Shown here: positions 1,748-37,075 of the stretch, one piece after another
How positions within the stretch are numbered: position 1 is the first letter of the stretch
Layout: the number at the start of each line of letters is the position of its first letter
IMG/VR virus record: IMGVR_UViG_3300008108_000158
Span: 1 to 37,075 of that record
From: a virus
Reading direction: 5' to 3' (one strand)
Length of the DNA: 37,075 bases
Made by a program: the position numbers and the translations under genes
The notes under the pieces: model-generated
Databases searched by the model: none
Told to the model about the DNA's origin: nothing
The model's input: only the letters and a program-made list of their open reading frames with translations

Positions 1748-2710
1748 ATGAATTGTTTAAATAACATTGTCGGCATTACTGAAAATCCAAATGTTTGTCT
1801 TCCAATTTATACACAATCTTTATCTGGTTTTTTTCTGGAAGATACAACTGCCGGAAGGATTCCAATTCAACCTGCTTTTTATCAAAACACAAATCTGATT
1901 GAAAGTATAATTCCAAATGCAATCAATGAAGCATTGAAGGAAATTAGATTAGCAACAGAAAAACGATTATTAAGGGTTTACAACAATCACATTACAACCA
2001 TTGGATTCAGGAATGATTATACTGGTTTAATGGGATCAACAAATGATTGGTATTATTTGTGCCTGAAACCAAAAAATATCAGGGGTGCAATAATGACAAT
2101 AAATAGTATCAATATATTTACCGGCAATGGAAAGTTTACCGGAAATATAAAGATATTGAAAGGCATGTATGGTGAAGAAATATTATATGATGGTTTAATA
2201 ACTGAATTTGAAAAAATGACAATTGATATATCACATGATGATGTATTTGTTGCATACCAATCAAATTCAGCACCACGAAATTTCATTCACAAATCATGTT
2301 GTGGTAAACAGGCAGGATATAAAAATTATTTATGGGTTGGATCCGGAACAGTTTCAGATTTGGAAAACATACAATATTCAGATTCAGATTATTGCAATGG
2401 TGTTGAATTATCAGTTGTTTTTGATTGTGATGGATTTCAGTTTATTGAAAAATTAGATTTCCAAAGATCACCATTTGGAATTGTTTTTGCCAAATTAGTA
2501 CAACAGATTGCAAGAAAAAATATTGGATATTGGTTGTTGACCAGTGAAAATATTAATGCATATTCAATTGCAAAGGAAGATGAATTAAGAATGATTTTGG
2601 AATATTTATCAAATGATATTCAAACAATGATCAATTATCTGCCAGAAAATTATGATCATTCAGATTGTTACAGATGCACAGGAGTTTTTAAAGATGAAAT
2701 ATTAATATAA
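1748..2710 (+). CDS. Virion-associated protein of unknown function, 320 aa
   Basis: I do not recognise a named family. The protein is soluble, mixed alpha/beta, with no signal peptide or membrane segment. It has several cysteines, including SCCG near residue 180 and DCYRC near the C-terminus. The N-terminus refers to itself as one compact region followed by aromatic, beta-rich sequence in the middle. It sits between the capsid gene and the tape measure gene, has its own promoter, and its TAA is followed directly by the tape measure ATG, so the two should be co-transcribed and translationally coupled. By position it could be a tail or neck protein made with the tape measure, but nothing in the sequence fixes that role. 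Confidence 0.6.
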   Translation: MNCLNNIVGITENPNVCLPIYTQSLSGFFLEDTTAGRIPIQPAFYQNTNLIESIIPNAINEALKEIRLATEKRLLRVYNNHITTIGFRNDYTGLMGSTNDWYYLCLKPKNIRGAIMTINSINIFTGNGKFTGNIKILKGMYGEEILYDGLITEFEKMTIDISHDDVFVAYQSNSAPRNFIHKSCCGKQAGYKNYLWVGSGTVSDLENIQYSDSDYCNGVELSVVFDCDGFQFIEKLDFQRSPFGIVFAKLVQQIARKNIGYWLLTSENINAYSIAKEDELRMILEYLSNDIQTMINYLPENYDHSDCYRCTGVFKDEILI

Positions 2711-15836: not shown

Positions 15837-16079
15837 ATGGCAAATCAATTTTTTCAAACACAGGTAAATTTTTCCAAATTAGCAAAGTATGTTGAAGAAA
15901 ACAAAGATAAACTTTACACAAATAAAGATGGTGAATCCTTTGTTTCTTTAAATGTATGGATCAATGAACAACCAGATCAATTTGGCAATCTTGGAAGTGT
16001 GCAGATAAACACACCAAAGGATCAAAAAAAGATTTACATTGGAAATTTTAAAGACAAAAAAGATAAAATACCATTCTAA
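15837..16079 (+). CDS. Small beta-rich protein of unknown function, 80 aa
   Basis: The ATG at 15837, after an A-rich leader and 10 bases past the terminase stop, is chosen over an upstream ATG at 15777 that would overlap terL by 50 bases. The 80-aa protein starts MANQFFQTQVNFSKLAKYVE and has KDGESFVSLNVWINEQPDQF, then VQINTPKDQKKIYIGNFKDK, suggesting a small beta fold. Proteins of this pattern recur in Bacteroidota phages, but the function is not known to me. Its stop overlaps the next start by one base. Confidence 0.6.
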   Translation: MANQFFQTQVNFSKLAKYVEENKDKLYTNKDGESFVSLNVWINEQPDQFGNLGSVQINTPKDQKKIYIGNFKDKKDKIPF

Positions 16080-16627
16080 TGGCAATACAGGATTTGGTTA
16101 ATAAATACACTGCAATTTTAAATGATCTTCCAAAAGAAAGGGAAAAGATTGCATTAACCATTGCAAATGAAGGTAAAGCACTTGCAGCATCCAGAATACA
16201 AAATGAAGGTATTAATTCTGATGGTCAGAAAATGCCATTGTACAGTAAAAAGGCATTGCCATTGAATTACTTTTCAAAATCAAACAATGCAGGTGCAGTT
16301 GAAAGATTTAAAAAGGATGTAAGCAAAGGCAAAACAATTTCTTCATATGAAAACTTCAGGAAATATCATGGAATGCCTGTGGACAAAAGAACCACAACAT
16401 TCACCGGTGATATGTGGAAGGATGTTATTGTTGAAATAACAAAACAAACAAGTGATACAACTGAAGTAACTATCAATGCCAGAAGTGCAGCAAACCAAAA
16501 GAAAATCAATGTAAATTCAAAGATTGCAAAAACAAATATATTGGCATTGTCTGATGAAGAAATTGAATTCATCAATGAATCACATAAAGAAATGATTGAA
16601 GCATTTTTAAAAAAATATGATAAATGA
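16079..16627 (+). CDS. Head-tail connector / virion morphogenesis-like protein, 182 aa
   Basis: The N-terminal 60 residues (helix IALTIANEGKALAASRIQNE followed by GINSDGQKMP) and a C-terminal strand-rich part with TFTGDMWKDVIVE resemble the phage virion morphogenesis/HK97 gp10-like families, which join head and tail. The order terminase, small protein, this gene, 154-aa gene fits a neck or tail completion module. The assignment is by motif style and position and is not certain. Confidence 0.55.
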   Translation: MAIQDLVNKYTAILNDLPKEREKIALTIANEGKALAASRIQNEGINSDGQKMPLYSKKALPLNYFSKSNNAGAVERFKKDVSKGKTISSYENFRKYHGMPVDKRTTTFTGDMWKDVIVEITKQTSDTTEVTINARSAANQKKINVNSKIAKTNILALSDEEIEFINESHKEMIEAFLKKYDK

Positions 16628-17088
16628 AAGATAAAATTAACCAGTTGAATGAATTCATTGAAGAAACTGGAATATTTTCCAGATGGGGAAATTTGTGTGT
16701 AAACAAAACTGATAAAGGGATGCCTTATGGTATCGGCACCATTTCAGATTGTGCAGGGAACATTTATGGATATGATGAAAATCAACAGTGTTCCGGATAC
16801 ATGTATATCAATAATATAACTTCAAAACAACCAACAATAAAATCAATTGAACTGGATGTTGAAATGCATATCAATATTTATACACCACATAAACAGATTG
16901 GTGAAACAAACAATTACTTTATCAAACCATTGGAATTGATGGGTAAATTGTCACGGAAAAAATATGTTTGCAAGTTTGTAAACCAGACATCAAACAAATA
17001 TTCATTTCAGGAAATTGCAACCATTGCAGTAAATTTAAGGGTATTTGTTCCATGTGATGACGTAATTTATAATGATCCGATATGTTGA
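16624..17088 (+). CDS. Probable tail completion or neck protein, 154 aa
   Basis: A 154-aa soluble protein starting MKDKINQLNEFIEETGIFSR. The N-terminal helix is followed by beta-rich sequence, with central SIELDVEMHINIYTP and a C-terminal strand region ending in NLRVFVPCDDVIYNDPIC. Size, fold style and position after the morphogenesis-like gene suit a tail terminator or completion protein, but no signature fixes it. It overlaps the preceding gene by 4 bases and the next by 7. Confidence 0.5.
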   Translation: MKDKINQLNEFIEETGIFSRWGNLCVNKTDKGMPYGIGTISDCAGNIYGYDENQQCSGYMYINNITSKQPTIKSIELDVEMHINIYTPHKQIGETNNYFIKPLELMGKLSRKKYVCKFVNQTSNKYSFQEIATIAVNLRVFVPCDDVIYNDPIC

Positions 17089-17354
17089 CAATAATATTTT
17101 ATTCTTCAGTTTTATCAATTTGTTATTCAATTTTGATCAGGAATGGTGAATTATTACAGGTATTTGCAAGGTATGTGAACATGTCAAATTACAATCCATT
17201 GATCAAAAAACTGTTACTTTGTCCACATTGTGTTGCAGGGCAAATTGCATTGTGGCAATGTGTATATGAAAATGATAATTACATTGCCATCCCTGTTACA
17301 ATCATATTTGTTTTTTACTTTATAACCATAATGCACAATGAAAAAAGGAATTGA
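17082..17354 (+). CDS. Two-helix membrane protein with CPHC motif, 90 aa
   Basis: Hydrophobic helices at residues 3-19 and 69-85 flank a loop with LLLCPHCVAGQIALW (45-58). The C-x-x-C with G-Q-x-x-x-W is a recurring motif in small membrane proteins of Bacteroidota phages and resembles DUF1360-type sequences, where the two Cys could form a disulfide or bind metal. The role is unknown. It is an odd place for a membrane protein, inside a head-tail gene block. It overlaps the next gene by 17 bases. Confidence 0.6.
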   Translation: MLTIIFYSSVLSICYSILIRNGELLQVFARYVNMSNYNPLIKKLLLCPHCVAGQIALWQCVYENDNYIAIPVTIIFVFYFITIMHNEKRN

Positions 17355-17847
17355 TTTTGATAAAAGGGTAATTCATGGCAAATCAGGAAAGATTTACAAA
17401 ATAATGCCTGAAGATATTAGTGTTGGAAGATGGGCAGAATTTGAAATCAGGGGTTGGACGTTGGCATACAATACAGATTTTGAAACACTTTATAAAATGT
17501 TTGAATCTGTTGAAGATCATATAATGAATGGTAAACACAATGCACAGGGTAATGCACACAATGCATTGAAAGAAATTCAGGAATTTAAAAATGGAATGGT
17601 AAATTATCAGTTAAATAAAAGATCAAAGATTGTTGAATTTGTTTCATTGTTCACCACAGAAAAGGATGAAGATGTTTCAATTCACACTGAAGAACAAATC
17701 AGGAAAAAATATGATGATTGGGGACATATTCCAGTTGCTGATTTTTTTTTGTTATGCGCAAATGTAATACCATCATTCAAAGACATATTAATAAATACAC
17801 TGCAAAACCAAAAAGAAAAGTTGCAGAGCGAAACGAACATGATATAA
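17338..17847 (+). CDS. Tail assembly chaperone-like protein (G-type, upstream of frameshift), 169 aa
   Basis: A 169-aa helical protein starting MKKGIDFDKRVIHGKSGKIY. Its final 30 residues (from ADFFLLCANVIPSFKD) are encoded over a second open frame. At 17742-17750 a run of nine T is placed exactly where the -1 frame opens (the -1 frame stop TGA is at 17739-17741). A -1 slip would swap this C-terminus for an 81-aa extension, making a protein of about 218 aa. This G/GT arrangement is known for tail assembly chaperones in long-tailed phages. Family identity is inferred from the frameshift layout, because the sequence itself is not recognised. The tape measure gene lies far away. Confidence 0.6.
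   Translation: MKKGIDFDKRVIHGKSGKIYKIMPEDISVGRWAEFEIRGWTLAYNTDFETLYKMFESVEDHIMNGKHNAQGNAHNALKEIQEFKNGMVNYQLNKRSKIVEFVSLFTTEKDEDVSIHTEEQIRKKYDDWGHIPVADFFLLCANVIPSFKDILINTLQNQKEKLQSETNMI
17742..17750 (+). promoter_or_regulatory. Probable -1 programmed frameshift site (T9 run)
   Basis: Nine T residues, read in the upstream frame as GAT TTT TTT TTG, allow tRNA-Phe to slip back by one base into the frame of 17754-17993. That frame is closed by TGA at 17739-17741, immediately before the run, and open for 84 codons after it. No strong downstream stem is obvious. A homopolymer sequencing error is the alternative. Confidence 0.6.
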
Positions 17848-17993
17848 AGGATACATATGAACAAATGTGTATCAGTGCAGTGAAATATTCCGGTTACAAT
17901 ATTGAATACATAAAAAGAATGCCTTTTTTTAAATTTTTAGATTTATTTGAAACCATTAAAAACATGGCAGAAAAACAACACAATAAAACATGA
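17754..17993 (+). CDS. -1 frame extension of the chaperone-like gene (T-type part), 79 aa if read alone
   Basis: This frame is open from the T9 run at 17742 and has an ATG at 17754, but a separate start here would overlap the 169-aa gene by 94 bases, unusual in this compact genome. It is more likely translated as a C-terminal extension by -1 frameshifting. The basic first part (NKYTAKPKRKVAERNEHD) is followed by a helical part with YNIEYIKRMPFFKFLDLFET that looks like genuine protein after the upstream frame has ended. In chaperone systems the long form binds the tape measure protein. Its stop overlaps the next ATG (ATGA). Confidence 0.6.
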   Translation: MRKCNTIIQRHINKYTAKPKRKVAERNEHDIKDTYEQMCISAVKYSGYNIEYIKRMPFFKFLDLFETIKNMAEKQHNKT

Positions 17994-18220
17994 AAAGGAA
18001 TATTTTCCAACGAATGAACCAATGCCAGATTTACCAACATATTTTTTTTGGATATGTGCAGGGAAGGATGGAAGCAGGTGATACAATTTCTGTTACATTG
18101 ATGGCATCTGAATTTTTAAAAAAATATCAGGTTGATGATATTGAAGAAAAAATATTACTGATAGGGTATTATAATTATTTTGATCGTTTTAAAGAATTCA
18201 TAAAAGAAGGAAGGAAATAA
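17990..18220 (+). CDS. Small protein of unknown function, 76 aa
   Basis: A 76-aa helical protein starting MKRNIFQRMNQCQIYQHIFF, with MEAGDTISVTLMASEFLKKY and an amphipathic C-terminal helix. It is coupled to the frameshift extension by a 4-base overlap and is the last gene before the portal promoter. It probably belongs to the tail or neck module by position. No domain recognised. Confidence 0.6.
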   Translation: MKRNIFQRMNQCQIYQHIFFGYVQGRMEAGDTISVTLMASEFLKKYQVDDIEEKILLIGYYNYFDRFKEFIKEGRK

Positions 18221-18280: not shown

Positions 18281-20068
18281 ATGTCTGATAATTTACATAA
18301 ATTTTTGCAACAATCAATCAAAAGAAATAAACAAAATGATCTGTTGGAAAAGACAGTCAAAGATGCACAATACCAAAAAGCAATTTATACCGGTGAAGGG
18401 CAAAGATCAATTTTATTAAAATATCGTGAAAGGGAAACAGAAAATCAAAAAAATGATCGTGAAAGAATAACAATTTCCAGAACAAAACATATTGCACATC
18501 AGATTGAAAATGTTTTAAACCAATTGGATATAATGGATAAACCGGCAATATCGGTTATCCATGAAAATGATGAAGTGAAGGATGTTTTGGCAAAACATAT
18601 TTATGATAATAATTTAAATAATCTTGCATTCAAATTTGTAAAGTATTACAATATTGTTGATGCAAATACATTTTTAGTTTGTGGTTATAATCGTTTTGGT
18701 GATATTGAATTCACACCATTAACCAGTGATTCAGTTTATGATTTTTATATTGTAAATGACCGGATCAAATGGGTAATTTTTCAGGTTGAAAGAAAAGAAG
18801 GTCAAAAAACTGTTTATGATTATAAATTATATCATGAAAATGGAATTATTTCATACAACAATAAATTGGGAAGTGAACCAACTGAAGAAACATACGGTGA
18901 TTATTATGTGACCAATATAGAAACTCAAAGAATGTTTGCCTTTCGTTTGGGTTATCTTCATGATTCAGTTACAAATTTCAAAACTTGTGTTTCAATTTTG
19001 GATTGTGCCAGTGTTCTTTTCAAATCATTAATATGGCAGGGTTCAGATTTAGATATTGACATTGCAAAGCATGGAATCATAAAACAGTTTGCATATGCGC
19101 AAAGATGTAATTATGAATCCATTGATGATAAAAATGGAAGAATGTATTGTGAAAATGGCATGTTGTATGTCAATGGCATGTCAAACATTGAAAATGCAAA
19201 TTGTCCAAAATGCCATGGAACCGGTTTGATGATGCACACTTCCAATCAGGATGTGATAAAATTTCCAATGCCACATGAAGGTGAAACTGGGTTAAAATTA
19301 AATGAATTGACACACACAGTTTTTTTGCCGGATTCAATATTGGATGCAAAAAAACAATATATTGCTGAAATAAAAGATGAAATCATTAAAACAATATTCA
19401 ATGCATCCATTGTAACAAAAGATGAAATTGCTGCAACTGCAACAGAAAAGGTAATTGATCTTCAGGGTATATATGCAACATTAAACATTTTAGGCAAACA
19501 GGTATCTGAATGCTTCATCTGGATGGTTGAATGTATATCTGAATTGATGGAATATGAAAATGTTGAAGTGGTTCATGGTTACACATTGAATTTGAAATTG
19601 GAATCTGTTGAAACTTTGATGGAAAAAAGATCAAAGGCAATACAGGCAAATGCACCAATGGAAGTGATTAAATCAATTGATTTGGCAATTCTTCAGAAGC
19701 AACATATTGATACACCAAAATTCATCAACAGATATTCAATATGGGAAAAGTACAGACCATTTGCAGATAAATCAGATACTGTTGCACTTCAGATTTTATC
19801 TGGGTTATCACAGACAAATAAATACAAAATACTTTACAACTTTTTCGGGCAAATAAAACAGAACATAATTTCAAAATATGGTGATTCATTTTTTGATTAT
19901 ACAGATGATCAAAGGGATGCAATCATAAATGATGAAGTGGAAAAAATAAGGGTTGAAATTCAATCATCAGAACCATCCAGAATATCATTCAATGATACTT
20001 TTGATCAAAATATTGATGATCAAAATGATGATGAAGATGAAGATAATAATGATGATGTAAATGAATGA
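18281..20068 (+). CDS. Portal protein (SPP1 gp6-like) with a zinc-type cysteine insert
   Basis: A 595-aa protein with portal features: an N-terminal helical region with RERITISRTKHIAHQIENVL, a clip/wing region with HIYDNNLNNLAFKFVKYYN and AFRLGYLHDSVTN, and a long C-terminal helical region with an acidic tail rich in Asp and Asn. Portals form the dodecameric channel at one capsid vertex. It has an unusual cysteine set at C276, C290, C308 and C311, with CPKCHGTG like one DnaJ-type zinc knuckle, probably a zinc site. The gene has its own promoter and overlaps the minor head gene by 8 bases. Confidence 0.85.
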   Translation: MSDNLHKFLQQSIKRNKQNDLLEKTVKDAQYQKAIYTGEGQRSILLKYRERETENQKNDRERITISRTKHIAHQIENVLNQLDIMDKPAISVIHENDEVKDVLAKHIYDNNLNNLAFKFVKYYNIVDANTFLVCGYNRFGDIEFTPLTSDSVYDFYIVNDRIKWVIFQVERKEGQKTVYDYKLYHENGIISYNNKLGSEPTEETYGDYYVTNIETQRMFAFRLGYLHDSVTNFKTCVSILDCASVLFKSLIWQGSDLDIDIAKHGIIKQFAYAQRCNYESIDDKNGRMYCENGMLYVNGMSNIENANCPKCHGTGLMMHTSNQDVIKFPMPHEGETGLKLNELTHTVFLPDSILDAKKQYIAEIKDEIIKTIFNASIVTKDEIAATATEKVIDLQGIYATLNILGKQVSECFIWMVECISELMEYENVEVVHGYTLNLKLESVETLMEKRSKAIQANAPMEVIKSIDLAILQKQHIDTPKFINRYSIWEKYRPFADKSDTVALQILSGLSQTNKYKILYNFFGQIKQNIISKYGDSFFDYTDDQRDAIINDEVEKIRVEIQSSEPSRISFNDTFDQNIDDQNDDEDEDNNDDVNE

Positions 20069-20873
20069 TATTGATGAAATTCTGGAAAGGTTTTATAAAT
20101 TAACTGATAACAGATTGTCAGGAATTGAAAGTTATTTTTATAAAATCATATATAATTACTTTGTTGATAATTTAGAAACAAAGCAAAATGTTATAAAATT
20201 AACTAACAAAAACATTGATACTGTAACTAAATTGAACAGTATTGATGAAAAAATGAAGGAACCATTATCTGGTTTTGGTGAATTTATTTTGAAAAGTATA
20301 ATTTCATTGATCAATTTTACTGGATTATCAATGGAAAAATATGATGCAAGGGCAATCAGTGCATCACAATCTGTTCAAAAAAAGGTGGTTGATCATCTTG
20401 AAAAGAACATACAATTCAACAATAATCTGGAAGCAGTTTATGGTGAAATAAAACAGGATGCAATTTCTTTAATGTCAAAATATGAAGGTATATCATTATC
20501 TGAATTGCGTGAATATTTAAGGGATAAAATCACTGATAAAAGGATTGTGACAAAATATTACAACAGATGGACAGGTGATATTTATTCGCAATACCAAAGG
20601 GCAGCAGCCAATGAAATCAGAAAAGATTTGGGAATGAAATATGCCATGTATCAGGGTGGATTGATTGAAACTTCCAGACAGTTTTGTAAAGAAAGAAACA
20701 ATAAACTGTTTTCTGAAGAAGAAATATTATCATGGCAATTTCTGAATTGGGATGGGAAACCATCAACTGGATACAATCCATTGTATGATTGTGGTGGGTA
20801 TAATTGTCGGCACCGGTTGGATTGGGTATCTGAAGCATTTGCAAAATCATGGTTGAAACGAAATGGTGGATAA
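20061..20873 (+). CDS. Minor head protein (SPP1 gp7 / Mu F-like)
   Basis: A 270-aa protein with a helical N-terminus and the C-terminal Mu F-like motif region: RQFCKERNNKLFSEEEILSW, then NPLYDCGGYNCRHRLDWVS (near 240-258). These Cys and His residues (C-x4-C, R-H-R) are characteristic of the phage minor head domain found in proteins that bind the portal and help DNA ejection or packaging. Position directly after the portal gene, with an 8-base overlap, is typical of the family. Confidence 0.85.
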   Translation: MNDIDEILERFYKLTDNRLSGIESYFYKIIYNYFVDNLETKQNVIKLTNKNIDTVTKLNSIDEKMKEPLSGFGEFILKSIISLINFTGLSMEKYDARAISASQSVQKKVVDHLEKNIQFNNNLEAVYGEIKQDAISLMSKYEGISLSELREYLRDKITDKRIVTKYYNRWTGDIYSQYQRAAANEIRKDLGMKYAMYQGGLIETSRQFCKERNNKLFSEEEILSWQFLNWDGKPSTGYNPLYDCGGYNCRHRLDWVSEAFAKSWLKRNGG

Positions 20874-36741: not shown

Positions 36742-37075
36742 ATGAAATTGGAGTTTGTCGCTTCTTTACTCAAAAAAGAAGCATTGGAGTTACAAGATGC
36801 TTTGAATCTTGAATCTGGAACAGAAGTGATTCCGGAAGAAATTGCAAGGGATTTAATTGAAAATCATATTAAAGAATTATCTGTAAGCAAATTGTCTGAA
36901 GGTAAAAAACAGGCAGAAGGAATGATCAAACGTAAAGTTTTATCAGAAGCAGAAAAAAAGATAAAAGAAAAATTCGATGTTTCAGGTGAAACATATGAAG
37001 AACTTTTGGAATCTTTAAATGAAAAAATCCATTTGCAAACATCAAATGTTGGTGATCAATTCAAAAAGGAAAAGG
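36742..37075 (+). CDS. Scaffolding-like protein, N-terminal part (continues at base 1)
   Basis: ATG 36742 after an AT-rich leader opens a frame that continues without a stop through the end of the window and, when the ends are joined, to the stop at 570-572. The N-terminus MKLEFVASLLKKEALELQDA is followed by helical, charged sequence (ENHIKELSVSKLSEGKKQAE). The joined product is 263 aa. It is placed as the gene just before the capsid gene. See the C-terminal part for the role. Confidence 0.7.
   Translation, partial: MKLEFVASLLKKEALELQDALNLESGTEVIPEEIARDLIENHIKELSVSKLSEGKKQAEGMIKRKVLSEAEKKIKEKFDVSGETYEELLESLNEKIHLQTSNVGDQFKKEK
36962..37075. repeat. Terminal direct repeat marking circular closure (copy 2)
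   Basis: Exact copy of bases 1-114. The pairing shows that the contig is circular or circularly permuted with a 36,961-bp unit. Confidence 0.9.

Follow-up and report, generated by a model that had tools for sequence, protein, structure and literature searches.

A conserved -1 frameshift signature in a putative tail assembly chaperone gene of uncultivated phages

A homopolymer between two reading frames

Does a run of nine T residues inside a 169-aa open reading frame mark a site where some ribosomes pass into the -1 frame, and is the gene a tail assembly chaperone of the kind found in long-tailed phages? A first-pass annotation of the window, by which we mean the whole analysed stretch of 37,075 nucleotides, had suggested both. 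Neither the short nor the long form of G/GT-type chaperones stays in the virion. In phage lambda, gpG binds the tape measure protein while the T part recruits the tail-tube protein (PMC5009743), and G/GT frameshifting is widely conserved in long-tailed phages despite low sequence similarity (PMC5009743).

We started from the sequence of the window, where most of what had been read at first sight proved accurate. Nine T residues lie in the 169-aa frame exactly where they had been placed, and the -1 frame, shut by a TGA immediately 5' of them, is open from the run onwards (17742-17990) (Table 1). The length of the extension needs correcting, as it had been given as 84 codons past the upstream stop. 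It has 83 codons in total, of which about 48 lie beyond the zero-frame stop (TAA, 17845-17847). Two in-phase heptamers fit inside the run, T_TTT_TTT (17742-17748) and T_TTT_TTG (17745-17751), and a shift at the first would give a predicted long form of 218 aa (137 + 81 residues). The AlphaFold2 model of the extension is all helical (pLDDT 81).

The downstream part had also been judged to look like genuine protein, and codon usage agrees. A scan trained on the large ORFs of the window scored frame 1 as coding until the run, was ambiguous to about 17790 and favoured frame 0 thereafter. From the run to 17790 the higher score was that of frame 1, and the bias of frame 0 was poor directly after the run; a better score for frame 1 is expected in this interval if both frames are used.

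Table 1. Coordinates of the features discussed, in positions of the window.
Feature	Position	Strand	Basis
g1748; abuts the tape measure gene here, precedes g16079 in relatives with this layout	1748..2710	+	ORF, homologues
Tape measure protein, 1168 aa	2711..6217	+	phrog_20660, E 2.8e-19
g16079, kept upstream of the chaperone gene in relatives	16079..16627	+	31 homologues
g17082, CPxC motif; directly precedes the chaperone gene in relatives where found	17082..17354	+	Homologues
Short form ('G-like') of 169 aa in the zero frame, putative tail assembly chaperone	17338..17847	+	ORF; syntenic homologues before tape measure genes; AlphaFold2 pLDDT 84
TGA closing the -1 frame immediately 5' of T9	17739..17741	+	Sequence
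Slippery run T9	17742..17750	+	Sequence; heptamer at the aligned site in 25/25 loci
-1 extension ('T-like'), 83 codons plus TGA (17991-17993)	17742..17993	+	ORF, extension alignments, AlphaFold2
C-terminal part of the extension, a conserved domain with helices and a '[DE]F[FYL]'-like motif ('MPFFKFLDLFETIKNMAEK' in the window)	17832..17990	+	Extension alignments; AlphaFold2
Portal protein; 3' of the chaperone gene here, 5' in relatives where both were found	18281..20068	+	Precedes MuF-like gene; homologues
MuF-like head protein, seed for finding relatives	20061..20873	+	C-terminal motif

A second apparent frame change was seen further downstream, in 17944-18220. There, frame 1 scores as coding to about 18040-18080, followed by frame 2 from about 18050, and the change adjoins a T8 run (18042-18049) some 290 nt downstream of T9. 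The first 17 codons of the ORF listed at 17990-18220 are unlikely, and no relatives of it were found. Two small overlapping genes might account for this pattern, as might a second recoding site or an error in the assembly.

Relatives in viral contigs

Used directly as queries, neither the short form nor the extension, the portal or the capsid gave a match in phages, viral contigs or genomes; for the viral contigs these searches used peptide patterns. The gene following the portal gene is MuF-like, and its C-terminal motif recurs in Pelagibacter phage proteins whose genes likewise come after a portal gene. Alignment seeded on this motif yielded 80 loci in viral contigs, many of which have homologues of the portal, the capsid, g1748, g16079, g17082 and the short form. 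These relatives are uncultivated phages with a head-tail module in common with the window. A short-form profile identified 23 records, one of which ends before the slippery site, so that 22 divergent homologues (13-25% identical) cover it. Two further loci, L210 and L214, were fetched later, bringing the set to 25 loci including the window.

Other routes to relatives were less productive. Terminase relatives were plentiful, but no other detectable structural gene was in common at those loci. The 26-kb record with the closest MuF relative (L101) contained no chaperone match, and the gene order of the window was absent from it. Queried against 395 Bacteroidota genomes, the chaperone profile gave a single weak match, in a 379-aa frame. 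As the terminase and tape measure proteins match those of phages of Bacteroidota, the host probably belongs to this phylum.

Conservation of the slippery site and the -1 frame

We next compared the site across the relatives. In the window and all 22 homologues, and again in L210 and L214, the opening of the -1 frame coincides with one aligned site or slightly precedes it, so the T-run site and both frames are retained as the frameshift reading predicts. An in-phase X_XXY_YYZ heptamer occupies the aligned site in 25/25 loci. Among the window and the 22 homologues, it is T_TTT_TTN in 20 (run lengths T6 to T10), C_CCT_TTC in two (L194 and L196) and A_AAA_AAA in one (L190). The later loci carry T_TTT_TTT (L210) and T_TTT_TTG (L214), which brings T_TTT_TTN to the window and 21 relatives. 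At other Phe-Phe pairs of the same loci, the T_TTT_TTY context was found in 16 of 125 cases (12.8%). Compared with this control, 20 of 22 corresponds to a binomial P of about 2e-16 with loci treated as independent, a value that overstates the strength of the result because the set contains closely related pairs (L197/L198, L201/L202) and is thus less than fully independent.

The -1 frame reaches 68-251 nt beyond the zero-frame stop in the window and the 22 homologues. Defining an overhang as at least 50 nt of overlap with the gene end and at least 60 nt beyond it, we found one in 23/23 family members versus 7.9% of 227 control genes. The extensions align with one another across the relatives and have a helical C-terminal domain in common.

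Several explanations other than ribosomal frameshifting can be weighed against these data. T9 is error-prone and a second frame change lies by a T8 about 290 nt downstream, so a homopolymer error in sequencing or assembly might have split one ordinary gene. Yet the same split recurs at the same site in independent contigs that differ in run length and are unrelated in base sequence, which leaves this explanation almost no credence. Alternatively, the -1 frame might hold a separate overlapping gene, translated from the correctly framed ATG at 17754 or from a later start and needing no frameshift. Relatives with such a separate start were not seen: in 17 of 23 loci no -1-frame ATG precedes the C-terminal domain, and in four neither ATG nor GTG nor TTG does. 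A separate gene would moreover leave the fixed slippery heptamer unexplained, and we consider it very improbable.

Transcriptional slippage deserves somewhat more attention. RNA polymerase could add one base, or remove two, within T9, after which normal translation would join the frames. With T9 in the window and T8-T10 or A10 in many relatives, the run lengths fall in the range where slipping by bacterial RNA polymerases is known. Against this, every run starts at codon position 3, a phase needed by ribosomal but not by polymerase slipping. In addition, several relatives make do with T7, or with T6 ahead of a C or G, and no long homopolymer is present in the two whose site is C_CCT_TTC. The family thus has the long homopolymer at the frame change in common with transcriptional-slippage genes in the window, but differs from them in its strict codon phase, its short runs and its non-homopolymer sites in relatives. 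The hallmark of that class, a long homopolymer free of phase constraint, does not hold across the loci, although the T9 of the window taken alone is long enough. The invariant phase, codon position 3 at every locus, together with the short runs and C_CCT_TTC sites, favours ribosomal slippage, and slippage by the polymerase appears unlikely.

Gene order and distance from the tape measure gene

The next long ORF begins within 80 nt of the -1 stop in 19 of 22 relatives, the exceptions being L197 (219 nt), L184 (268 nt) and L188 (198 nt), where the ORF picked in L188 is unlike a tape measure protein. Eight of ten downstream proteins tested matched tape-measure PHROGs. The usual order is portal, MuF, capsid (or g21049), g1748, g16079, g17082, chaperone and tape measure, and its upstream part, portal-MuF-g16079-(g17082)-chaperone, is kept in relatives. 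Relatives differ in where the g21049 homologue lies or on which strand (L119, L108, L111, L113, L120 and L121), and a capsid homologue was undetected in some.

The window departs from this layout. At 2710/2711 its g1748 and tape measure genes meet, and the block from g16079 to the chaperone gene sits between the terminase and the portal. A four-gene block including the chaperone gene thus lies away from the tape measure gene, an arrangement seen only in the window among the loci compared. A 114-bp direct terminal repeat (1-114 and 36962-37075) points to a probably circular genome of 36,961 bp and is consistent with a complete assembly. An ORF spans the contig joint and is a probable scaffold protein. 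Measured round the circle from the chaperone gene, the distance to the tape measure gene is 21.7 kb going downstream and 11.1 kb going upstream. The displacement that had been noted at the outset is real. Adjoining the tape measure gene is a usual, but not defining, trait of G/GT-type pairs that is absent from the window and present in most relatives. Since the pair directly precedes the tape measure gene in most relatives, the window looks like a rearranged descendant, as its gene order stands in the assembly. Within this phage group, reshuffling of the structural module seems to have happened on more than one occasion.

RNA context and family identity

We found no strong RNA structure downstream of the site in the window. 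Over the family, the mean z-score of the 100 nt downstream was -0.96 versus -0.08 at random positions; on average the family is mildly more structured than the controls there, which is suggestive only. A GGAGG-like purine stretch occurs about 14-20 nt 5' of the heptamer in several loci of the L182-L204 range, but it is unreadable as a signal because it encodes a conserved EG motif.

The protein had been called unrelated in sequence to known chaperones. Neither Pfam nor PHROGs gave a consistent match to known chaperone families, or any match above the profile threshold. Weak matches to Spectrin_5, phrog_5925 and phrog_824 were unconfirmed by the relatives and were rejected. Five family members tested against about 50,000 phage records had no match, and no published description of the family was found in the open-access literature. 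A fold search with the structure model gave no significant match; the best viral one was named tail assembly chaperone, with a non-significant E-value of 0.06.

A weak similarity links the tape measure protein of the window to that of Elizabethkingia phage TCUEAP2. Just before its tape measure gene, this phage has an annotated 'tail assembly chaperone' (phrog_8914) with a C-terminal stretch that is alike by eye. The TCUEAP2 protein differs in being encoded by a single 235-aa reading frame that needs no frameshift, and a profile comparison between it and the window family was not significant.

A probable G/GT-type chaperone pair and its implications

The in-phase heptamer, the -1 overhang, the aligned C-terminal domain, the switch in codon bias, the conserved upstream order and the adjoining tape measure genes of relatives support the reading first proposed for this locus. 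We conclude with considerable confidence, from sequence comparison, that it encodes, for a long-tailed phage, a pair of tail assembly chaperones of the G/GT type, made by -1 ribosomal frameshifting. Counting against this are the missing family similarity and fold match, the unstructured RNA of the window, the separation of the gene from the tape measure gene, the weakness of U_UUU_UUU as a shift site in E. coli (PMC5009743) and the poor frame 0 codon bias just 3' of the run.

Like lambda gpG/gpGT, the locus has overlapping frames, a -1 shift site near the end of the first frame, an extra C-terminal domain and, in most relatives, a position directly 5' of the tape measure gene. Unlike lambda, its site is mostly T_TTT_TTN, weak in E. 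coli, where U_UUU_UUU is much less shift-prone than A_AAA_AAG (PMC5009743). The pair in the window also lies far from the tape measure gene and belongs to a family outside the Pfam and PHROGs chaperone families.

While both frames and the phased site can be read directly in the window and its relatives, as can the synteny with tape measure genes, we infer that slipping occurs, that it is the ribosome that slips and that the products act as chaperones. Most ribosomes would terminate to give the 169-aa short form. A minority, on ...GAT TTT TTT TTG..., would slip back one base with both tRNAs at U_UUU_UUU (or U_UUU_UUG) and produce the 218-aa long form with its additional helical C-terminal domain. 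If lambda is a guide, coating of the tape measure protein would fall to the short part and recruitment of tail-tube subunits to the additional domain, with the short:long ratio set by the slip rate.

A broader reading, possible but on balance doubtful, is that a lineage of uncultivated phages, probably of Bacteroidota, uses as its standing -1 signal a poly-U heptamer of low efficiency in E. coli, often without strong structure downstream, and that the chaperone of the window works unlinked. If so, host ribosomes or tRNAs would slip readily at the poly-U heptamer, and tight linkage of the chaperone and tape measure genes would not be required. The findings give a likely function to a gene family without a Pfam or PHROGs entry, with the conserved frameshift as its signature. 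They also supply naturally occurring poly-U shift sites on which frameshifting could be tested in bacteria with little Shine-Dalgarno use, and the window offers one genome in which the chaperone and tape measure genes stand apart.
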